Origin: Acidimicrobiia bacterium
Lineage (GTDB): Bacteria > Acidobacteriota > Terriglobia > Bryobacterales > Bryobacteraceae
Assembly: GCA_016871315.1 (NCBI GenBank)
Contig: VFZE01000008.1
Coordinates: 62,001 to 126,000, forward strand
Length of the DNA: 64,000 nucleotides
Direction: 5' to 3'
A model generated the notes under the pieces. That model saw only the letters and a list, made by a program, of their open reading frames with translations, was not told where the DNA came from and made no database searches. A program made the position numbers and the translations under genes. Shown piece after piece: positions 50,311 to 60,811 of this stretch (position 1 is the first letter of the stretch; each line of letters starts with the position of its first letter).

Positions 50311-50619
50311 TTGCCCCTCATGAACTCCTCCCTCACCACCTCAACCGCGGAAGCCGTTTTCGTATTCACCGGCCCCATCTTTGATTCCCAGGAAATCGAT
50401 GTCATCGGCCCCGGCCGCGTTGCCGTCCCCACCCATTTCTTCAAAGTGATCCTCGTCCTGCGCCCCCACGACAGAACTCTCCACGCTTCCATCCTTCCCA
50501 ATCTCGATCCCATCCCCCAGCCACTCGATGCCTTCTTTGTTTCCGCCGATGAAGTGGAACGACGCACCGGCCTTGGCTTCTTCTCCTCGCTCGATGACTC
50601 CGCCATGCTTCAGCGCTGA
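50311..50619 (+). pseudogene. C-terminal fragment of a DNA/RNA non-specific (NUC1-type) endonuclease
   Basis: About 100 codons. From residue 14 on, AVFVFTGPIFDSQEIDVIGPGRVAVPTHFFKVIL, then ILPN, VSADEVERRTGLGFF match the last third of secreted ENDO_NUC1 nucleases. The catalytic DRGH motif, the signal peptide and the rest of the fold are missing. The frame opens at TTG 50311 just behind the preceding gene, so the 5' part has been lost rather than shifted in frame nearby. The end overlaps the convergent gene by ten bases. Confidence 0.6.
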
Positions 50620-51545
50620 GCCGCCGCCCGCAGATCCGCCGCCGTCGGCGGATGCAGCCGGTTCGCATACCCGCTCAGCCGTGGCAGCAGCCGCAGCACC
50701 GGAGCCGCCAGCCGGAACACATCCCTCGCATCCACCCGCACGTCAAATCCCGCTCCCGGCAGCAGTTCATCGGCCAGCCCGTACAACGATTCCAGCTCGC
50801 TTGGGTCCTCCACAGGCAGCCGCGTCCGCGTCGGCCGGCTCTCATCCCGCACCGCAACCACCCCGATCTCGGAAAACAAATAGCACATCCTCGCCACATG
50901 CGAAGGTTCCAGATCAGCCGCCCGCGAAACATACGCCAGGTTCGTCTTCGTGATATCCAGCTGATGCGGCTGCACGAACAGCGGCACCGGCGCGAACGCC
51001 GCATGCGCCGACTCATGCCCAATATCGGAATCCCAATCCCAATCCTGCCCCAGCTTCCGCGCCGTCACCAGCCACACATCCGGCTCTCCGCTCTCTCCAC
51101 TCCTCCACGCAACCCCATGGTTCCGCATCGTCGAGCACGGCACAATCCCCCGCCGCGACTCCGCTGTCAGCAACGGCTCCTCATCCAACCGCAACCCGCC
51201 GTCGGAAGAATAGTAAATCGCCCACGGCTGCACATGCGTCCGCCAAGTCAGTATCTCCTCAATTTCCTCCTCCCCCACCAGCCCCTGCGACACCATCGCA
51301 TCCCGCCGCGCCAGCCGGTTCGGTATCTCCCGCTTCAGATACTCCCCGCAATTCTCCACGAATCGCTCCACCCGCTCCGGCTCCACATCCAGATCCGCAT
51401 ACAGGCTGATCGATGCCGGCAAATAGACATCCAGCCCCGAAGCCAGCCCCGAAGCCAGGCGCTCCCGCACGCCCTCTACCACATGCACCGTCGTCTCATT
51501 CCACGGCAACCGCTTAGGCCGGGAAGCTGTGAACAAGCAATTCAT
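50610..51545 (-). CDS. Uncharacterised protein with HExxH motif, last gene of the ABC/TIR-like operon
   Basis: A 311-residue cytoplasmic-looking protein without recognisable family. The only catalytic-type motif is DIGHESAHAAF near residue 180, an HExxH zinc-peptidase pattern in a plausible helix. The N-terminal 100 residues are helical (EPERVERFVENCGEYLKREIPNRL) and contain the segment ILTWRTHVQPWAIYYSSDG. The C-terminal part is rich in Arg and Leu. The start at 51545 overlaps the ABC ATPase gene by 32 bases, and the order suggests a role connected to the importer or the TIR-like protein. A chance HExxH cannot be ruled out. Confidence 0.6.
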   Translation of the reverse strand: MNCLFTASRPKRLPWNETTVHVVEGVRERLASGLASGLDVYLPASISLYADLDVEPERVERFVENCGEYLKREIPNRLARRDAMVSQGLVGEEEIEEILTWRTHVQPWAIYYSSDGGLRLDEEPLLTAESRRGIVPCSTMRNHGVAWRSGESGEPDVWLVTARKLGQDWDWDSDIGHESAHAAFAPVPLFVQPHQLDITKTNLAYVSRAADLEPSHVARMCYLFSEIGVVAVRDESRPTRTRLPVEDPSELESLYGLADELLPGAGFDVRVDARDVFRLAAPVLRLLPRLSGYANRLHPPTAADLRAAAQR

Positions 51546-52275
51546 AGATCTCCAGAAATTCCGGCGTCTTCATCTGCTCCCGCGTCCGCGGCTTCGCAAG
51601 CGTCGAATCGATCACCTTCAAAATCCGCCCCGGCCGCGGCTTCAACAACACCACCCGATCGGCAAGCAGCACCGATTCGCGCAGGTCATGCGTCACCAGA
51701 ATCACCGTACATTTAGTCTGACGCACCGCCTTCAACAGCAGTTGCTGCATGCTGTCACGCCTCGTCTCATCCAGCGCCCCGAACGGCTCATCCAGCAACA
51801 GCAGTCGCGGCTCCACGATCATCGTCCGCGCGATCGCCAGCCGCTGCCTCATCCCCCCAGACAGCGCCTTCGGAAACGAATCGGCGAATTCGCTCAGCCC
51901 CATGAACTCCAGCCACTCCTTCACCTTTCCGTTCGCGCACTCTCCCTTCTCCTGCAACCCGAACGCCACGTTCTCCCGCACCGTCAGCCACGGAAACGCG
52001 TTGTAGGACTGAAACACCAGTCCCCGCTGTGGCGACGGCCCTTCTATACACCGCCCCTCAAACCACACCTTGCCCGTAGTCGGCGAATCCAAACCCGCCG
52101 CCAGTCGCAGCAGCGTCGACTTCCCGCATCCGGACGGTCCCACCAGCGAAATGAACTCGCCCTCCAAAATCGTCAGGTTGATCTCCTCGGCCGCCGTGAT
52201 CGAGCCGCCTCTCTCATCCAGGAACACTCGCGTGACATCTTCAAACCGCAACGCCGCATTGTCGGTCACTGCCAT
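51514..52275 (-). CDS. NitT/TauT-type ABC importer ATPase
   Basis: A 253-residue ATPase subunit. Walker A GPSGCGKST near residue 43, the Q-loop LVFQSYNAFPWLTV, the signature LSGGMRQRLAIARTM, Walker B LLLLDEPFGALDE and the switch His in VTHDLRESVLLAD are complete. It belongs with SsuB/TauB/NrtD-type importers of sulfonates, nitrate, thiamine precursors and similar small molecules; the substrate here is unknown. It overlaps the permease gene by 10 bases and the HExxH gene by 32 bases. Confidence 0.94.
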   Translation of the reverse strand: MAVTDNAALRFEDVTRVFLDERGGSITAAEEINLTILEGEFISLVGPSGCGKSTLLRLAAGLDSPTTGKVWFEGRCIEGPSPQRGLVFQSYNAFPWLTVRENVAFGLQEKGECANGKVKEWLEFMGLSEFADSFPKALSGGMRQRLAIARTMIVEPRLLLLDEPFGALDETRRDSMQQLLLKAVRQTKCTVILVTHDLRESVLLADRVVLLKPRPGRILKVIDSTLAKPRTREQMKTPEFLEIYELLVHSFPA

Positions 52276-53030
52276 CGGAACATTCTGCCTGCACCCAGTT
52301 TAAACATCCGGTCCGTCAGCAACCCAAGCAACCCGATAAAGAGGATTCCCGCAAATACCCGGTCCGTCTCCAAATACCGCTGCGACTGAATCACGAAGTA
52401 GCCGATCCCCTTGTTCCCCGCCACCAGCTCCGCCAGCACCAGGTACGACCATGCCCACCCCGCCGCGATCCGCATATCGTCCCAAATCGCCGGCATCGCC
52501 CACGGCAGCACGATCCGCCGGATGATCTCGAACTCGCTCAGCCCGAACGTCCGCCCCGCCTCCACCAGATCACCCGGCACCGTCCGCGCATCGTCGGCAA
52601 ACAGCAGCACCTGCTGAAACACCAGCCCAATTGTGATCACCGCCATCTTCTGCAAATCATCGATCCCGAACCACAGAATGCACAGCGGCACCAGCGCCGC
52701 CACAGGCAGATACCTCGTGAACCCGCACAGCGGGTGAATCACCCGCGCCATCCAATCCACCCGCGCCGTCATGATCCCCAGCGGAAACGCAACCAGCGTC
52801 GAAAACAAAAATGCTCCGCCAACTCGCACTATGCTTGGCCAGAGGTGCCCCTGCAAAAAATCCACCGTCAGCAGCTTCCGGAATCCCGCCAGCGTCTCCG
52901 CCGGACCCGGCAAAAACACAGGATCCACCGTCCCTGTCTCCGTCAGCCCCACCCACAGCGCGGCCAGAAACACCAACGGCGCCGCCGTCATCACCCGCCG
53001 CTGCCAGATTCCCATGGCCGCATGTTCCAT
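52266..53030 (-). CDS. NitT/TauT-type ABC importer permease
   Basis: A 254-residue inner membrane protein with about six helices. The coupling segment DLVEAGRTFGLSEFEIIRRIVLPWAMPAI is the EAA loop of BPD-type permeases, and the N-terminal region FLPGPAETLAGFRKLL is typical of SsuC/TauC relatives. It starts 6 bases after the TIR-like gene ends and overlaps the ATPase gene. The partner binding protein is encoded on the far side of the TIR-like gene. Confidence 0.93.
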   Translation of the reverse strand: MEHAAMGIWQRRVMTAAPLVFLAALWVGLTETGTVDPVFLPGPAETLAGFRKLLTVDFLQGHLWPSIVRVGGAFLFSTLVAFPLGIMTARVDWMARVIHPLCGFTRYLPVAALVPLCILWFGIDDLQKMAVITIGLVFQQVLLFADDARTVPGDLVEAGRTFGLSEFEIIRRIVLPWAMPAIWDDMRIAAGWAWSYLVLAELVAGNKGIGYFVIQSQRYLETDRVFAGILFIGLLGLLTDRMFKLGAGRMFRWQ

Positions 53031-53036
53031 AGGATG

Positions 53037-54203
53037 CTAATTGCCCGCCGCAGCTCCCACCGGCGTTTGCCCGAAGCAGTACTTCCTTAGCTCAGCATGA
53101 ATCGCCGGATCAAACTCCTGCTTCAGCCGCTGCCAGATCTTCTCTCCGTTGCCGTTCTCCTCCAGCTTGAACGCATTCGTCGATTGAAATATCGAGGATG
53201 TCGGACCCTCGGGCGGTTCGATGTAGTTCACTTTGATGTCTTCTGCCGTGTCGTAAGCTCGATCCTTCTCCAGCCACGTCACAAACTTCCCCTCCAGATG
53301 CTTGCGCATGTAGCATTTCGCAAACAATTCACTGTCTGCGTTGTGGATGCAAAAATCGAATGGCCCATGCGGAAGGATGCAGATCGTCATCGACTCCTTC
53401 AGTAGCTCCAAGTTCTTGATCACGTCCTCTTTCTTCTCCTTGGTCAGCCTCCTCCGGTCGGCGGTGTTCTTTCCACCCAATCCCGCCGTGGCCAGCGTTT
53501 GCAGGAACTTCGATGTGACTGAATGATTCTGGCTTTCCCTCAGGAAGTACATGTACCGGACCCCGGTCTTCATGTTGCCCAATGCATGATCGGCAAACTC
53601 CCCGTCGCTTTCAATCGGTTGCCCCGTCCGCACGATCACCTCGCTTCCATCCTGCAACTGCCCCGGCGTGATCGACTTCAGCTGCTCATACGCCATCAGC
53701 ACCGCCGCATCCACGTAAGTGAATTCCGGCCGCACATAAACATCCTTCTCATCCATCACACCCTGGATCATGACGGCGGCGTCCTTCAATGCCTCCCGGC
53801 ATGCCGCCGGTGTCAGCTGCCCCGGCTGCTCGAAATGCACGAATGTCCTTCCGGCAAGATCGCTCGGCACATCGTCGCGGTCCACCGAGGCGATCATGAA
53901 ACACCGCTCCGGCTGAAGTCCCAGGCCCCCCATGAACAATCCCAACTCGAAGATGCAGTTGTCCCGCGGGACGATCTTCGCCTCCCCGCGCTGCTCGGTC
54001 GGATCATCCGGTGTCAGAAGCACCGCGAAAAAGTCCACTTCCTTGCACGCATCCAGCAACGATTGCAGTGTCTCCGTGCTCGGCGCGAACGTGTCTCTTT
54101 CCCAAATCTGCACATCCACACTGCCTTGCAGATGAAACTGCAGCGCCCGGGCCAGCGGTGCGCTCCTCCCGCTCGATGCAACGAACATTCTCTTTTTCCG
54201 CAT
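53037..54203 (-). CDS. TIR-like (PF10137 / CAP12-PCTIR type) protein with novel C-terminal domain
   Basis: A 388-residue cytoplasmic protein. Residues about 5-135 match the prokaryotic TIR-like nucleotide-binding domain: MFVASSGRSAPLARALQFHL, VQIWERDTFAPSTETLQSLL, DFFAVLLTPDD and PRDNCIFELGLFMGGLG. Glu86 in FELG is at the NADase catalytic position. Relatives degrade NAD+ in antiphage systems such as CBASS and Pycsar. Residues about 150-388 (GVRYMYFLRESQNHSV, ICILPHGPFDFCIHN) are not STING, SAVED or any sensor I recognise. The gene sits 6 bases from an ABC binding-protein gene on one side and 6 bases from the permease on the other. No cyclase is nearby. Confidence 0.85.
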   Translation of the reverse strand: MRKKRMFVASSGRSAPLARALQFHLQGSVDVQIWERDTFAPSTETLQSLLDACKEVDFFAVLLTPDDPTEQRGEAKIVPRDNCIFELGLFMGGLGLQPERCFMIASVDRDDVPSDLAGRTFVHFEQPGQLTPAACREALKDAAVMIQGVMDEKDVYVRPEFTYVDAAVLMAYEQLKSITPGQLQDGSEVIVRTGQPIESDGEFADHALGNMKTGVRYMYFLRESQNHSVTSKFLQTLATAGLGGKNTADRRRLTKEKKEDVIKNLELLKESMTICILPHGPFDFCIHNADSELFAKCYMRKHLEGKFVTWLEKDRAYDTAEDIKVNYIEPPEGPTSSIFQSTNAFKLEENGNGEKIWQRLKQEFDPAIHAELRKYCFGQTPVGAAAGN

Positions 54204-54209
54204 TTTTTT

Positions 54210-55193
54210 CTACCTCGCTGCTTTATGGATAAATCCAGGATCAACCACCGAATCCGCCTTCACCGCTCGCCCAATCACTCCCGCCTCTTTCCATATCTCC
54301 GCCGCCCGCTCCGCCACCTGATACACCGGCCCACGCACGCCCTCTGCTCCAAAGTAAGACCGGTTCCTCTCCAAATCACAAAACTTCGCCCCGCTAAGGA
54401 TCGCCCCATACTTCGCCGCGTCCACCTGGAAATGCGGCGCCATCACCTGGTTGGCTTCCGCCGCGTTCGCCTTCCAATAAGCAATCGCCTTCAAAAGCGC
54501 ATTCACTATCTTCTGCACGTCTTCACGCGACGATGCCATCACCTCGTTGTTGAACGCCAGGCAATCCACGATCAGATCCGGGTGATCGCTCGTCGAAGCC
54601 AAAATGTGACCCCCGCCCTCCTCACGCGCCATCGTCAGCCACGGCTCCCAGATCGCCGCCGCATCCACCTTGTTCGTAATGAACGCCGCCCCCGCTTCCG
54701 ATGTTTCCATATCCACCGTATTCAAATCCTCCACCTTCAGGCCATGCTGCCGCAACATCGCCCGCACAAAGAATTCGCTCGGCAACCCCCGCTGAAACGC
54801 CAGCCTCTTACCCCTCAAGTCCTCGAACTTTTGAATCCCTTTTTTCGCTACGATCCCGTCACCGCCCGTGGATTCATCAATCGCCATCACGACTTTCGTC
54901 TCCAGGTTGTTCCCCGCCGACATCACGAAATAATCCACCGGCGCCGCCAACCCGTCAATCCGCCCCGCCTTCAGCGCGCTGTTCCGCTCCGCCACTCCCG
55001 TCAGCACAATCAGATCCACATCCACTCCCGCCTCGCGAAAGAAGCCCTTTTCCTTCGCCAGGTAGAAAGGTCCGAACCCCACCCACGGTCCAAGCCCGAT
55101 TCGGTACATCTTTGTTTGCGGCTTGGAACCGCAGCTGGCCAGCAAAATGATCAGCACGAAGAATGCACCAGATGCATGTCGGAAAGTTCTCAT
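54210..55193 (-). CDS. SsuA/THI5-like substrate-binding lipoprotein
   Basis: A 327-residue exported lipoprotein (lipobox LIILLASC, Cys near residue 21). The NMT1/SsuA fold is shown by GPWVGFGPFYLAKEKGFFREAGVDVDLI at the start of the mature domain, DGLAAPVDYFVM and DLRGKRLAFQRGLPSEFFVRAML, and by VDAAAIWEPWL in the second lobe. It captures the substrate of the downstream permease/ATPase pair. It is the first gene of the five-gene operon, separated from the TIR-like gene by 6 bases. Confidence 0.93.
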   Translation of the reverse strand: MRTFRHASGAFFVLIILLASCGSKPQTKMYRIGLGPWVGFGPFYLAKEKGFFREAGVDVDLIVLTGVAERNSALKAGRIDGLAAPVDYFVMSAGNNLETKVVMAIDESTGGDGIVAKKGIQKFEDLRGKRLAFQRGLPSEFFVRAMLRQHGLKVEDLNTVDMETSEAGAAFITNKVDAAAIWEPWLTMAREEGGGHILASTSDHPDLIVDCLAFNNEVMASSREDVQKIVNALLKAIAYWKANAAEANQVMAPHFQVDAAKYGAILSGAKFCDLERNRSYFGAEGVRGPVYQVAERAAEIWKEAGVIGRAVKADSVVDPGFIHKAAR

Positions 55194-55251: not shown

Positions 55252-56679
55252 TTAAGCCGGACGGCTTCGCCCTTCCTTTTGATACCGCTCCAGTAACCCG
55301 CTCAAGTTCTTCACCATCTCCGGCTGCTTCAGATAAAGATTGTTCTCCTCCCCCGGATCCTGCGCCAGATTATAAAGCTGCCCCTCCGCCTCGCCCGGCT
55401 TCGCCTCCAGCTTCCTCGGTTCGCTGAACCCGCCAGACCCCAGCCCCAGCTCCAGCTTCCAATCCCCCTTCCGGATCGAAAACATCCCTTGCGAGGAATG
55501 ATGTACCACCGCATCCCGCGAACCCGCCTTCCCCTCCAGACACGGCAGCCACGAAAAGCTATCCTCCCCCGCATCCGCAGCCAACTTCACCCCGTCCATC
55601 TCCGCAACCGTCGCCAGCAGATCCGTCAAGCACGACAGCTGAGTGCTCACCACGCCCGCCTTCGCCTTACCCGGATACCTCACGATAAACGGAATCCGGT
55701 GCCCCGCCTCCCAAATATCCGCCTTCATCCCCCTCCAGTGCGCATTCGCCCGGTGCGGAAACTTCGCCTTATCCTCCGGCGTCCAGTGCGCCCCGTTATC
55801 CGAGGTAAACACCACCATCGTGTTCGACCCCAGCTTCTGCTCCTCCAGCGTCCGCAGCACTTGCCCCAGCAGTTCATCCACCTGCACCACAAAGTCCCCG
55901 TAAATCCCACCCTTGCTCTTGCCCTGAAACTGCTTCAGCGGTACCCACGGCGTGTGCGGCCCCGTCAGCGGCAAGTACAGGAAAAACGGCTTCGAAGCCT
56001 CGCGCGCACGCTCCCGCAAGTAACCCGTCGCCTGACGCGCCAGCACCGGCAGCACCTCTTCAATCTTGAACGACGGCGCCATTGGACCCTCCCGCCAGAA
56101 CACCCCGCGCGGCTGATTCCTCCCCGGCGTTTGATCCGTCGCCTGCTCCACCGCCCGGTCATTTTCCACATACAAGTACGGAGCCATATCCAGCGATGCC
56201 GGAATCCCGTAAAAATAATCGAACCCGTGATCGTTCGGATTTGGCCGCAGCGGTTTTGAATAATCGGCAGGCTCCTGATCCCCCAACCCGAGATGCCACT
56301 TCCCCACGCAGCCCGTATGATACCCGCGCGAGCGCAGCAAACTCGCCACCGTCATCCGCCCCGGCTCGATCAGGTTCTTCGAATACCCATTCAGCACCCC
56401 GCTCTTCAGCCGCGATCGCCAGCAGTAGCGCCCCGTCAGAATCCCGTACCGCGTCGGCGTACACACCGAGCTCGGCGAATGCATGTCCGTGAACCGCACA
56501 CCTTGCGCCGCCAGCTTGTCCGCATTCGGCGTTGGAATCTGCGAATCCTTGTTGTAGCACCGCAGATCTCCCCACCCCAGATCGTCGCAAAGCACATAAA
56601 CAATATTCGGCCGCGTCGCCGCTTTCAGTGGCAGCGCCGATGCGGCGGCCGCTTGCAAAAACTGCCGGCGGTTGCTCAC
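55252..56679 (-). CDS. Secreted sulfatase (formylglycine type)
   Basis: A 475-residue arylsulfatase-family enzyme. The N-terminus NRRQFLQAAAASALP is a Tat- or Sec-type signal. The metal ligands Asp32 and Asp33 are in YVLCDDLGWGD. The active-site motif is C73-T-P-T-R within SSVCTPTRYGILTGR, where Cys is converted to formylglycine by a maturation enzyme not encoded here. TSDNGAHW is the later metal/substrate motif. The target sulfate ester is unknown. It overlaps the DUF1080 gene (ATGA). Confidence 0.92.
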   Translation of the reverse strand: MSNRRQFLQAAAASALPLKAATRPNIVYVLCDDLGWGDLRCYNKDSQIPTPNADKLAAQGVRFTDMHSPSSVCTPTRYGILTGRYCWRSRLKSGVLNGYSKNLIEPGRMTVASLLRSRGYHTGCVGKWHLGLGDQEPADYSKPLRPNPNDHGFDYFYGIPASLDMAPYLYVENDRAVEQATDQTPGRNQPRGVFWREGPMAPSFKIEEVLPVLARQATGYLRERAREASKPFFLYLPLTGPHTPWVPLKQFQGKSKGGIYGDFVVQVDELLGQVLRTLEEQKLGSNTMVVFTSDNGAHWTPEDKAKFPHRANAHWRGMKADIWEAGHRIPFIVRYPGKAKAGVVSTQLSCLTDLLATVAEMDGVKLAADAGEDSFSWLPCLEGKAGSRDAVVHHSSQGMFSIRKGDWKLELGLGSGGFSEPRKLEAKPGEAEGQLYNLAQDPGEENNLYLKQPEMVKNLSGLLERYQKEGRSRPA

Positions 56680-57842
56680 TGTACCTTCTCCAATATTTCA
56701 ATGTCCTTGTAATAAACTTCCAGTTCGTTGCGCGGATTCAGTTGCAGCGCGAACCGCCCCTCTAGCGGCCCCGGATCATTCCGCACCTCAGACATCTTCA
56801 TCCCGTTCACATGCACAACCACGCGCCGCCCGTGCGCGGAAACCGTCATCCGGTTCCACTCCCCAACCTTATAATGCGGCGTCTCCGCCACAGGACCCGT
56901 ATGCACCAGCCACCCGCGCTTGCCCGGATGCTGCAACCCTCCCACGTCGCGAGTCGGGTCCACCTCCACCTCATACCCCATCGCCGGCGGCGCTCCCATC
57001 CGGAAAAAGAACCCGCTGTTGCCCTTCACCACCTTGTAATCCAGACGCACCGTCACATTCGAATACTCCGCCTCCGACATCAGAAACCCCCGTTGCCCCG
57101 CGCCCGGACCATGCGTACCCTTCACTGCTCCATCCACAATCGCCCAATCCCCGCCGCCATCCTTCTTCCAGCCGCTCAACGTCCGCCCGTCGAATATCCG
57201 CCGCCACTGGTGACGCCCCAACTCCGCGATCCGCAAATTCCGCCACCGCACCTCCGCCGGCGAATCCCCCTTGAACGAATGCACCTGCAGCCCGATAAAC
57301 CCCTCCAGATCCTCCGAATCCACCAAATCCGCGCACGGCACATGATTCACCCACGTCCGTATCCGGTCCCCGCGCGCCTCCACCAGATACTGATTCCACT
57401 GATTGTCCTTGAACGCCCCCTTGCACTCCGCATCCGAGGAAGTGTTGTGCACCCACCCCCGCCGCGCCTCATCGTAAATCCCACCAGACGCCCCCGACCG
57501 CTCGCTCGCGATCTCCACCTGGTACCCGTAAACCCGCCCCGGGTGATGACGCCCCACCGCCGTATCGTAAGCATGGCTCCGAACCTGCACTCCCGAATTC
57601 AGCCGCGGATCCACCTTCACCTCAAACTCAAGCAAAAAATCCCCATAACTCTTCCGCGTGCACAGGAACGTATTCGGACTCCCCTCCACCGTCGTCCCGA
57701 CAATCTCTCCATTCTCCAACCGGTAACTCGCCTTCCCGCTGCGAATCTCAAACTCGTCGAGATTCTTCCCATTGAACAGCGGAACCCAAGCCTCCGCTGC
57801 AAATCCGCTCCAGGCAACAATTACCATCCATACAAAGCGCAT
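56676..57842 (-). CDS. Secreted protein with two DUF1080 (3-keto-disaccharide hydrolase) domains
   Basis: A 388-residue exported protein (signal FVWMVIVAWSGFAAEA). Two concanavalin-like DUF1080 domains stand in tandem. The first is WVPLFNGKNLDEFEI to LQVHSFKGDSPAEVRWRNLRI (about residues 20-205), the second WRRIFDGRTLSGWKKDG to GRFALQLNPRNELEVYYKDIEI (about residues 210-385). Known members hydrolyse 3-keto glycosides made by Gfo/Idh-type dehydrogenases, and such a dehydrogenase is encoded just upstream. ATG at 57842 (MRFVWMV) precedes the signal peptide directly. The sulfatase start overlaps its stop. Confidence 0.9.
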   Translation of the reverse strand: MRFVWMVIVAWSGFAAEAWVPLFNGKNLDEFEIRSGKASYRLENGEIVGTTVEGSPNTFLCTRKSYGDFLLEFEVKVDPRLNSGVQVRSHAYDTAVGRHHPGRVYGYQVEIASERSGASGGIYDEARRGWVHNTSSDAECKGAFKDNQWNQYLVEARGDRIRTWVNHVPCADLVDSEDLEGFIGLQVHSFKGDSPAEVRWRNLRIAELGRHQWRRIFDGRTLSGWKKDGGGDWAIVDGAVKGTHGPGAGQRGFLMSEAEYSNVTVRLDYKVVKGNSGFFFRMGAPPAMGYEVEVDPTRDVGGLQHPGKRGWLVHTGPVAETPHYKVGEWNRMTVSAHGRRVVVHVNGMKMSEVRNDPGPLEGRFALQLNPRNELEVYYKDIEILEKVQ

Positions 57843-57904
57843 AGTGTGTTGAGTGTATCGCACACCGCATCTCCTGCTACCACCCAGAATCGTGCGTTGA
57901 TTCT

Positions 57905-57934
57905 ATCCGTGTTCATCTGTGTTTATCCGTGGCC
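57905..57934 (+). repeat. Intergenic ICVYPW-type repeat (10-base units)
   Basis: Three consecutive 10-base units, ATCCGTGTTC, ATCTGTGTTT and ATCCGTGGCC, lie in the 110-base gap between the Gfo/Idh and DUF1080 genes. Translated in one frame they read SVFICVYPW. I recall this phrase from dispersed intergenic repeats in many unrelated bacterial genomes, where it is often wrongly annotated as the end of short proteins. Nothing else is evident in the gap. Confidence 0.55.
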
Positions 57935-57953
57935 AATATTCTTTGTCCTCGAA

Positions 57954-59207
57954 CTAAACCCGATCCGCCACCACGTACGGCTTCCGATACTCCCGCCTCA
58001 ACATCCCATCCGCCGCCGCGTCATTCACGAACCGCATCGCCGCCGCGTCAAACCGCACCTCGCGCCCCAGCCGGTACGAAATATTCCCCAGATGACACAG
58101 CGCCGTCGACAAGTGCGTCTCCTCGATCTCCGCGTTCAACTCCTGCCACCGCCGCGACCTCACCGCATCCACGAAATTCTGCATGTGATCCTGATTCGCC
58201 GGATACTCCACCGCCGCCTCAGGCTTCTTGTTCCGCCCCAGCGTCACCTCGAACTCCCCATTCGCCCGGATATGCAAATGCCCCTTCGTCCCGAAGAAAT
58301 CCCAGCTCATCGGCTCCGCCGTATAATGCCCCCGGATCTCGCCCACGATGGATGACCCGTCCGCGTAACTCCACGTTACCGTCTGCGTATTCGGCGTCTC
58401 CGCCTGATCCTTGTACCCGAACCTCCCGCCGGTCGAATACACCCGCCCAGGCAGCCCCTTCTTCATGCCCCACCGCGAAATGTCCACCAGGTGAATCCCG
58501 TTGTTGCCCAGCTCCCCATTGCCGAAATCCCAAAACCAGTGCCAGTTATAGTGCACCAGGTTCTTGTGATACCTCTGCATCGGCGCCGGCCCCAGCCACA
58601 CATCCCAGTTCAGCCACGCCGGCGGCTCCGACGGCTGCTCGAACCCGATCGAATTCCGGTTCCCCGGAAAGAACCACTTCGCCTGATACACATCGCCCAC
58701 CACGCCCTCGTGCACCATCTGCACCGCCTTCCGGAACCGCCCCCAGCTACGCCGCTGCGTCCCGCCCTGCATCACGCGTTTATACTTCCGCGCCGCCTCC
58801 ACCAACTTCACACCCTCGAATATATTGTGCGAAACCGGCTTCTCCACATAAACATCCTTGCCCGCCTGACACGCCCAGATCCCCGCCAGCGCATGCCAGT
58901 GATTGCACGTCGCGATCAGCAGCGCATCCACTTCCTTGTCCTCCAGCGCCCGCCGCAGGTCTGACTCCAGCTTCGCCCGCTTGCCCGTCTTATCCAATAG
59001 CGTCTTCGCAGCCGCCTCCGTCCGATTCCCGTCCGGATCGATCAGCGTCGCCACCTCCACATGGGGAAGCGAAGAGCATTCCCGCAACAGATCGTTGCCG
59101 CGCCCTCCCATTCCCGCGATCGCCACACGCACGCGGTCATTCGCTCCCGCCCACGATGCCGAAGCAAGCGCCGAAGAAGATGCAAGCAGATATTGCCGTC
59201 GCGTCAT
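57954..59207 (-). CDS. Gfo/Idh/MocA-family oxidoreductase with Tat-like signal
   Basis: A 417-residue oxidoreductase. The N-terminus TRRQYLLASSSALASASW is a Tat-like signal. The Rossmann start is VRVAIAGMGGRGNDLL. EKPVSHNIFEGVKL follows near residue 120, and GNNGIHLVDISRWG has the conserved His. The C-terminal part ends with YRKPYVV. Together with the double DUF1080 protein it fits the pathway in which glycosides are oxidised at C3 and the 3-keto sugar is then eliminated outside the cytoplasm. The start at 59207 is chosen because the signal peptide begins there; a long open stretch upstream belongs to the M23 gene region. Confidence 0.9.
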   Translation of the reverse strand: MTRRQYLLASSSALASASWAGANDRVRVAIAGMGGRGNDLLRECSSLPHVEVATLIDPDGNRTEAAAKTLLDKTGKRAKLESDLRRALEDKEVDALLIATCNHWHALAGIWACQAGKDVYVEKPVSHNIFEGVKLVEAARKYKRVMQGGTQRRSWGRFRKAVQMVHEGVVGDVYQAKWFFPGNRNSIGFEQPSEPPAWLNWDVWLGPAPMQRYHKNLVHYNWHWFWDFGNGELGNNGIHLVDISRWGMKKGLPGRVYSTGGRFGYKDQAETPNTQTVTWSYADGSSIVGEIRGHYTAEPMSWDFFGTKGHLHIRANGEFEVTLGRNKKPEAAVEYPANQDHMQNFVDAVRSRRWQELNAEIEETHLSTALCHLGNISYRLGREVRFDAAAMRFVNDAAADGMLRREYRKPYVVADRV

Positions 59208-59227
59208 GATGGCGGTATTGTACCGCC

Positions 59228-60811
59228 TTACCGCTTTCGAACGGGGCCCGTGTTCACCGACACCCGTGCCCGGAACGTCATCGGGCGGTGTGAACCACGC
59301 GTCCCGATCACCGACATCCGCCACAGCCCCGCCTCCGGATTCGTCATGTCCCACCGCCTCGAAATCCGCCCAGGCGTGAAACCCATCTCCTCCGCACCAG
59401 GCCCGAACTGCCGCCCCGACGGACTCGTCAAATACAGCTCCAGCGTGTGCTTGTATTCGGACCACATCACGTGAACCCACGCCGATCGCGAATTCTTCGG
59501 CACCGTGAACTGTTCCGTCCACCACTGCTCAACCGCCACCGTTCCTTCGAACCGTTTCTCGATCGCCGGCCCCTCCGGTGGCTCACCCCTTTCCTCTGCC
59601 GGAGCGCCGCCCATCGCCAGCGCCGCTCCCGGCGCATGATTGCTCGACACCACCGTCGTCTGCGCTCGCGGCGCCTTCTGCGCAAACTCCTCGAACACAA
59701 ACGGTATGCTCTGGCTCGATATCTTCTCCCCGCGCGTCACGTGCACATGCAGGTGCGTCCCAAAACTGTAGCCGCTCGAACCCGCCGTCGCCAGTGCCTG
59801 CCCCTGCTGCACGATATCTCCCGTCCGCACGCGGACCGATCCCGCCAGCAGATGCGCATAGTGACTGTAGAAGCCGTCCCCATGATCAATCGTGACGTAG
59901 TTGCCGAACCCGCGCGTCCGCAGGTTCTGCCGCAGCCCAAGATCACGCGCCGTGACAATCCCGCCTCTCATCGCCACCACTTGTGCGTTGCCGCGCGGCG
60001 CAATGTCATAGGCGTGCAGACTGTTCCCCCAATGCGAAAAGCCCCCGCGCGGACCCTGCGTCACCACCCACGGCACCCCAGCCGGCGTCGGCAACTTGTA
60101 TCCATTCGTCGAAATCGCAAGCCGGAACGGCAAGCTCGATCCGCCCGTCGGCGAACTCACCAGTAACATATACTCGCCCGCCTCCAGCGTCGGATAGCTC
60201 ACCTCCAGCCGCTCCGCCGAACCCTCCTCCGCCAAGAGATGATGCAGATAATTCCACCCGCCCGACGCCGTGTACCGCGCGATATTCACCACCGACTCCC
60301 CGTGAAACCCGGAACCCGCAATCCGCAGCCGCGTCCGCCCCTCCCCATTTACCTGCTCCACCCCCGTCACCGTGGCCGCGCCCCTTTCCGCCGCTCCTTC
60401 TATCGTGAACGTGCCCTCCGCCATCCCCGCGTCATTCGCCAACACGCGCACCTTCCACCTGCCCGGCCGCGACGCCGCCGCAAAACCCGCAACCGGCATC
60501 TGCGTCACAAAGCACAACGCCTGAGCCGCCGCCGGCATCGCCGGATAACTCGTTCTCAGCGCCACTTGCCCGCCTGGCTCAATCCACTCCACTCCTACAA
60601 CATCGCCGCGCCTCAACCCGCCCGCCTGAAAACTCACAAACACCTGCGCATCCCGAACCTCGAACCTCTCCCCCTGCTTGGATACAGCGCACCCCCGGTC
60701 GTCCGCCTCCGCCCCCATTTGCAGCCTGCTCACCCTCGGCGCCCCGGCTAGCGTCGCCACCAGCCCCAATCCCGCCACCAACCTACCGCCGCGCATGCAT
60801 ACACGTGCCAT
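59228..60811 (-). CDS. Secreted M23-type metallopeptidase
   Basis: A 527-residue exported protein (signal RLVAGLGLVATLAGA). Residues about 30-255 look like Ig/IPT-type domains (VFVSFQAGGLRRGDVVGVEW, RLRIAGSGFHGESVVNIA). The lysostaphin-type M23 domain occupies about residues 265-395: NSLHAYDIAPRG holds the HxxxD zinc pair and GTHLHVHV the HxH. A C-terminal beta-sandwich follows. It probably cuts murein cross-bridges, its own or of competitors. I chose ATG 60811; nearby ATGs are possible. Confidence 0.87.
   Translation of the reverse strand: MARVCMRGGRLVAGLGLVATLAGAPRVSRLQMGAEADDRGCAVSKQGERFEVRDAQVFVSFQAGGLRRGDVVGVEWIEPGGQVALRTSYPAMPAAAQALCFVTQMPVAGFAAASRPGRWKVRVLANDAGMAEGTFTIEGAAERGAATVTGVEQVNGEGRTRLRIAGSGFHGESVVNIARYTASGGWNYLHHLLAEEGSAERLEVSYPTLEAGEYMLLVSSPTGGSSLPFRLAISTNGYKLPTPAGVPWVVTQGPRGGFSHWGNSLHAYDIAPRGNAQVVAMRGGIVTARDLGLRQNLRTRGFGNYVTIDHGDGFYSHYAHLLAGSVRVRTGDIVQQGQALATAGSSGYSFGTHLHVHVTRGEKISSQSIPFVFEEFAQKAPRAQTTVVSSNHAPGAALAMGGAPAEERGEPPEGPAIEKRFEGTVAVEQWWTEQFTVPKNSRSAWVHVMWSEYKHTLELYLTSPSGRQFGPGAEEMGFTPGRISRRWDMTNPEAGLWRMSVIGTRGSHRPMTFRARVSVNTGPVRKR

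Follow-up and report, generated by a model that had tools for sequence, protein, structure and literature searches.

A TIR protein gene within an ABC importer operon points to a rare, mobile and seemingly undescribed stress or immune module

The locus raises the question of why the gene for a TIR-like protein should stand inside the operon of an ABC importer. The window, which is the whole stretch of 64 000 nt that was analyzed, contains five co-directional open reading frames (ORFs) on the minus strand in the order substrate-binding protein (SBP), TIR protein (here called the slot protein), permease, ATPase and HExxH protein, in agreement with the preliminary description. The spacing reported there was reproduced exactly from the ORF coordinates: gaps of 6 nt between SBP and slot gene and of 6 nt between slot gene and permease are followed by overlaps of 10 nt between permease and ATPase and of 32 nt between ATPase and HExxH gene, the last value hinging on which start codon is taken for the HExxH gene. 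The features are as follows.

54210..55193, minus strand: SBP, a substrate-binding lipoprotein (NMT1/SsuA type) of 327 aa with lipobox LASC (Pfam PF09084, 1.8e-27)
53037..54203, minus strand: slot protein of 388 aa, with a TIR domain at the N-terminus and an orphan domain at the C-terminus (PF10137, 9.4e-23, residues 5-125)
53740..54203, minus strand: TIR domain of the slot protein, residues S11, R80, N82, E86 and D115 kept (SfSTING alignment, fold match)
53040..53741, minus strand: orphan C-terminal domain of the slot protein (profile search; without Pfam or PDB relative)
52266..53030, minus strand: ABC importer permease of 254 aa (PF00528, BPD_transp_1, 5.4e-25)
51514..52275, minus strand: ABC importer ATPase of 253 aa with Walker A and LSGGM signature (PF00005, ABC_tran, 5e-33)
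50610..51545, minus strand: HExxH protein, a predicted cytosolic metalloprotease of 311 aa with motif GHESAH and Glu226 (orphan family, weak gluzincin-like fold match)

SBP, permease and ATPase belong to the same families as those of the SsuA/TauA/NrtA-type importers (PF09084, PF00528 and PF00005), here in one operon, and the importer looks functional because Walker A and LSGGM are present in the ATPase sequence. Every NCBIfam importer model for a named substrate remained below its cut-off. The operon differs from SsuA/TauA/NrtA importers by two extra genes, namely the slot gene that separates SBP from permease and the downstream HExxH gene, and in a related importer on a Rhizobium plasmid the genes for SBP, permease and ATPase adjoin directly, unlike in the window. 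Upstream of the SBP gene and co-directional with it lie sulfatase, DUF1080-like and oxidoreductase genes (55252-59525), with the sulfatase gene ending 58 bases from the SBP gene. A scan for sigma-70 promoter patterns was uninformative, with counts close to the shuffle mean.

Nine modules with a recurring gene order

We scanned the SBP pair against about 85,000 species genomes and found eight close relatives at 56-63% identity, after which the next matches fall to 32%. Together with the window they make up nine modules from at least four named phyla, all of them from metagenome assemblies or fragmented genomes. The eight relatives are the following.

L022: LacPavin bacterium
L023: Calothrix (cyanobacterium)
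L024: Acidobacteriaceae bog_169 (contig identical to that of genome G307)
L025: Xenococcus (cyanobacterium)
L026: Nitrospira
L027: Magnetococcales
L028: Methylococcaceae
L029: Methylumidiphilus

In both Methylococcales the module is divided between two contigs. A slot gene with a common C-terminal domain was observed between SBP and permease in eight of the nine modules, and seven of these eight slot proteins carry a TIR domain. The eighth, from Calothrix, is a protein of 302 residues without TIR that starts with a short hydrophobic stretch. The Xenococcus module has no slot gene. Between its ATPase and HExxH genes (L025 11750-14533) lie two further genes, the first for a second SBP-like protein that is fused to an OmpA domain, the next for a GUN4 protein predicted to have a membrane segment at its N-terminus.

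Among 399 genomes sampled from the class of the window's genome, SBP relatives with E below 1e-25 numbered only three, the one in the window included, and full-length matches to the slot protein only two, from the window and from G307. The genome G307, from another family of the class, has the five genes in unchanged order, flanked by other genes, at 61% identity to the window for the SBP, 64% for the permease and 31% for the slot protein. The order recurs in the other phyla, where importer parts are 48-87% identical. In more distant importers (31-40%) the SBP gene directly adjoins the permease gene and there is no slot gene; 72 distant importer loci contained neither the C-terminal domain nor the HExxH family. 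The position of the slot gene is not due to chance, because the order recurs across phyla and the C-terminal domain and HExxH family are missing from these 72 loci. This gives good support to the earlier proposal that selection holds the TIR gene inside the importer operon, and the count of homologous neighborhoods places a TIR gene in related operons. A chance insertion of the gene into an importer operon would be in line with its rarity within the class; the probability that we leave to it is negligible, since it is refuted by the conserved order, with the gene in the identical place in eight of the nine modules from different phyla.

Searches with other parts of the module added little. Used as the only query against genomes, the TIR protein gave nothing that could be confirmed, and tblastn of the TIR protein against plasmids returned matches to the TIR part only. 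Neither the LacPavin C-terminal domain, the Calothrix slot protein nor the HExxH protein had a plasmid match; the LacPavin slot protein had none in the phage search, and no relative of the HExxH protein was confirmed on viral contigs. The sole SBP match on a viral contig (L103, 28%) was rejected as a module, as it belongs to a distant, ordinary-looking importer.

The slot protein and the HExxH protein

The Pfam assignment of the slot protein to the TIR-like family PF10137 that had been proposed was recovered at 9.4e-23, limited to residues 5-125. The catalytic Glu of SfSTING is E84, and D110 (from the dimer mate), S10, R78 and N80 are further residues named for this protein (PMC9402430). In the alignment these correspond to E86, D115, S11, R80 and N82 of the slot protein, with Glu86 lying within PRDNCIFELGLF. 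The catalytic Glu is present in all six complete TIR copies; the Magnetococcales TIR has ASYN in place of PRDN and has thereby lost Arg-Asp. By Pfam, PADLOC (PycTIR, 4.8e-23, TIR part only) and NCBIfam (Cap12 equivalog, 72 bits where the cut-off is 450, confined to residues 3-152), the sequence groups the window's TIR with the Cap12/PycTIR NADases over the TIR part only. The structure model of the slot protein was built from seven sequences (mean pLDDT 78), and its predicted TIR part aligns with TIR-STING at Z 14.3 and rmsd 3.8 over 142 residues. Residue set and predicted fold support NAD+ cleavage as the putative activity of the TIR.

The TIR fold is common to nucleoside 2'-deoxyribosyltransferases, and the TIR model also aligns with these enzymes (Z about 11). 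This agrees with a metabolic operon, in which a small, perhaps N-glycosidic, compound would be imported and the TIR-fold and HExxH proteins would be processing enzymes. The intact importer motifs, the strongly conserved SBP and the ordinary neighbors of four of the nine modules fit this explanation as well. We nevertheless regard it as unlikely: the TIR sequence groups with the Cap12/PycTIR NADases, a C-terminal domain without TIR as in Calothrix would be odd for an enzyme, and several modules are linked to TIR-caspase, STAND and 8xMP genes (see below).

The preliminary description was right about the identity of the TIR part and overlooked the orphan domain at the C-terminus; this domain accounts for over half of the slot protein and is the part that stays constant among the slot proteins. 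A profile of this domain built without Calothrix recovered the Calothrix copy at 4.3e-23 among 7509 ORFs from the collected loci and matched nothing outside the modules in this set. As Calothrix keeps the C-terminal domain without a TIR, we regard the TIR as exchangeable and the C-terminal domain as the part that persists. Sequence searches of Pfam and PDB gave no relative of the domain, and the structure-comparison matches span the TIR part only. Weak Foldseek matches of the C-terminal domain to F13 (9fhk) and TrmBL2 (5bpd), at E about 0.003-0.006, came without sequence support, and we do not claim a phospholipase D or TrmB-like domain.

For the HExxH protein no Pfam family was matched, and we do not assign it to a named peptidase family. 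Its family occurs in seven of the nine module genomes and always adjoins the importer; five copies run in the direction of the importer genes and those of the two Methylococcales converge on them, and in the Methylococcaceae a DDE transposase gene adjoins it (L124 3378-4636). All five aligned copies have H177-E178-x-x-H181 and the downstream Glu226 without change, and the best fold match, a weak one, is to collagenase H (Z 5.2, rmsd 5.5 over 158 residues). With the motif and a presumed downstream Glu ligand present, it is predicted to be a gluzincin-like metalloprotease. The two modules in which the HExxH gene is missing, LacPavin and Magnetococcales, are those with a ThsB-like TIR and caspase pair; the Magnetococcales contig stops about 400 bases past the ATPase gene, so an HExxH gene there may be lost from view. 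If the pattern holds, we infer that one or the other of two unrelated proteases may occupy the protease place.

The genes raise one more explanation, namely that the importer is paired with a TIR defence protein and brings in an NAD+ precursor or another compound for recovery. This would account for a conserved SBP, of NMT1 type, beside a predicted NADase. It appears very improbable to us: the named importer equivalogs are all below cut-off, no known NAD-precursor family was matched, and the HExxH gene would be left unexplained.

Neighborhood, divergence and meaning of the module

For better evaluation we compared the operon with known systems. It shares with Cap12/TIR-STING of CBASS (SfSTING, PDB 7un8) the N-terminal PF10137 TIR, the NADase residues and the cytosolic two-domain layout, but the C-terminal domain in the window is not called STING by Pfam or NCBIfam, an ABC importer belongs to the operon, and Pfam found no CD-NTase in a scan that covered the five operon proteins and two flanking ones. 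PycTIR of Pycsar likewise has a PF10137-type TIR; its domain order is reversed relative to the slot protein, where the TIR is N-terminal, only the TIR part matches, and the operon gave no Pfam match to a cyclic-nucleotide-binding domain or a pyrimidine cyclase. Type IV Thoeris consists of a TIR and a caspase, as described for Rousset et al. (2025) in PMC12847820. Such a pair, with a ThsB-like TIR, lies upstream of the SBP gene in LacPavin and Magnetococcales, whereas the window has neither gene, its TIR is of another Pfam family, and an importer is present. The NTP-dependent conflict systems of Kaur et al. (2020/2021; PMC7159879, PMC8195603) have in common with the modules the exchange of effector parts as well as TIR, caspase, GUN4 and 2TM membrane parts; a term search of these two articles returned neither an ABC importer nor a periplasmic binding component. 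The module thus resembles TIR-effector systems such as Cap12 and PycTIR, yet lies outside CBASS and Pycsar, and in the window also outside type IV Thoeris. No importer-TIR system was found in searches of the open literature.

Several modules have neighbors of the conflict type. At L022 7599-8969 and L027 7163-8654, directly upstream of the SBP gene, a ThsB-like TIR gene (PF08937) precedes a caspase gene (PF00656); the caspases of these two unrelated genomes are 43% identical. In LacPavin the caspase frame and the annotated SBP frame overlap, while in Magnetococcales 346 bases lie between them. Both Methylococcales have a fusion protein in which an 8xMP octameric membrane domain precedes the SBP (PF24838; L028 605-2038 and L029 7543-8973); the domain was detected at 4e-39 in L028, the L029 copy aligning along the L028 fusion. 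Methylumidiphilus also has a STAND-like DUF4062 protein upstream (L029 2670-5840) and a TIR_2 protein with a P-loop NTPase downstream (L116 6199-8929), and in LacPavin a TIR-Mrr protein is encoded downstream. No homologues of these neighbors were found in the 72 control importer loci (1.17 Mb), a control that is biased because the queries were taken from the modules. Ordinary neighbors surround the modules of the window, G307, Calothrix and Nitrospira. By tblastn with the proteins of both relatives, neither the ThsB-like TIR nor the caspase is present in the window; caspase genes of the window's genome are sited on contigs C1, C9 and C11, unlinked to the operon, and were rejected as module parts.

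The nine SBPs are about equidistant across phyla (55-65%), with exceptions at about 80% for Calothrix and Xenococcus and for the two Methylococcales, and the distance between the two Acidobacteriota SBPs is no smaller than that to SBPs of other phyla. In a genome of the same genus (G399, 86% complete) the lpd-POTRA flank is kept and the module with the adjoining sulfatase gene is absent, as are the DUF1080-like and oxidoreductase genes from the corresponding place. The C-terminal domain occurs in one of 396 genomes sampled from the phylum and in one of 242 from the class of Calothrix, each time in the module-bearing genome itself. The distances of the module genes covary (Mantel r 0.55-0.97, p 0.0004-0.014, TIR left out), and the genes therefore appear to travel together. 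Mean identity amounts to 61% for SBP and permease, 56% for the ATPase, 47% for the HExxH protein, 36% for the TIR and 27% for the C-terminal domain. A receptor with an effector under conflict would be expected to combine a conserved importer with an output that is exchangeable and changes fast, and the hydrophobic stretch that stands in for the TIR in Calothrix speaks against a catabolic operon, where such an exchange of enzymes is unexpected. The same data bear on a regulator of transport, in which the TIR-type protein would sense or make a nucleotide signal and gate the importer without killing. The slot inside the importer operon and the tight spacing in most copies agree with such a regulator, which we judge to be quite unlikely in view of the full set of NADase residues, the fast divergence of the slot protein and the loss of the TIR in Calothrix.

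Whether the five genes are a single conflict module that moves horizontally and serves immunity or cell suicide, with the importer as input and an exchangeable effector, is in our judgement an evenly balanced call on these sequence comparisons. In its favor are the gene order across nine genomes, the Calothrix C-terminal domain without TIR, the kept NADase residues, the associations with TIR/caspase, 8xMP, STAND-like, P-loop NTPase and TIR-Mrr genes, the patchy spread, the star-like distances and the faster divergence of the output parts (27% and 36%, compared to 56-61% for the importer). Against it stand the ordinary neighbors of four modules, the Xenococcus module without slot gene, the seemingly functional importer with its strongly conserved SBP, which would be equally expected of a metabolic importer, and the small number of only nine loci, all from metagenome assemblies or fragmented genomes. 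A role in defence is plausible from the exchange at the N-terminus, the TIR, caspase and STAND neighbors, the patchy distribution over phyla and the NADase residues.

In such a conflict module, SBP, permease and ATPase would be a complete importer serving as input, which senses the state of the envelope or of the extracellular space or imports a ligand. The slot protein would be the cytosolic output, its orphan C-terminal domain coupling it to the importer or to the importer's ligand, and the TIR, as a presumed NADase, would cleave NAD+ once clustered, like TIR-STING. The HExxH protein, if it is a protease, may act as activator, brake or second effector, a role that the ThsB-TIR and caspase pair may occupy in two relatives. 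Known triggers of TIR effectors are second messengers, Argonaute-guided nucleic acid, phage proteins and STAND-type sensors. We tentatively propose, as a possibility rather than a probability, that an ABC importer can be an immune receptor of an undescribed class, in which SBP and transporter control a cytosolic effector, mostly a TIR NADase, through the orphan domain and with a metalloprotease partner.

Taken together, our findings point to a rare, mobile and seemingly undescribed stress or immune module, and they add two orphan protein families, the C-terminal domain of the slot protein and the HExxH protein. If the link between importer and TIR is true, it would place the periplasm or solutes of the extracellular space upstream of an NAD+-depleting switch, and the five-gene operon would offer a testable handle on how bacteria tie the state of nutrients or of the envelope to programmed death.
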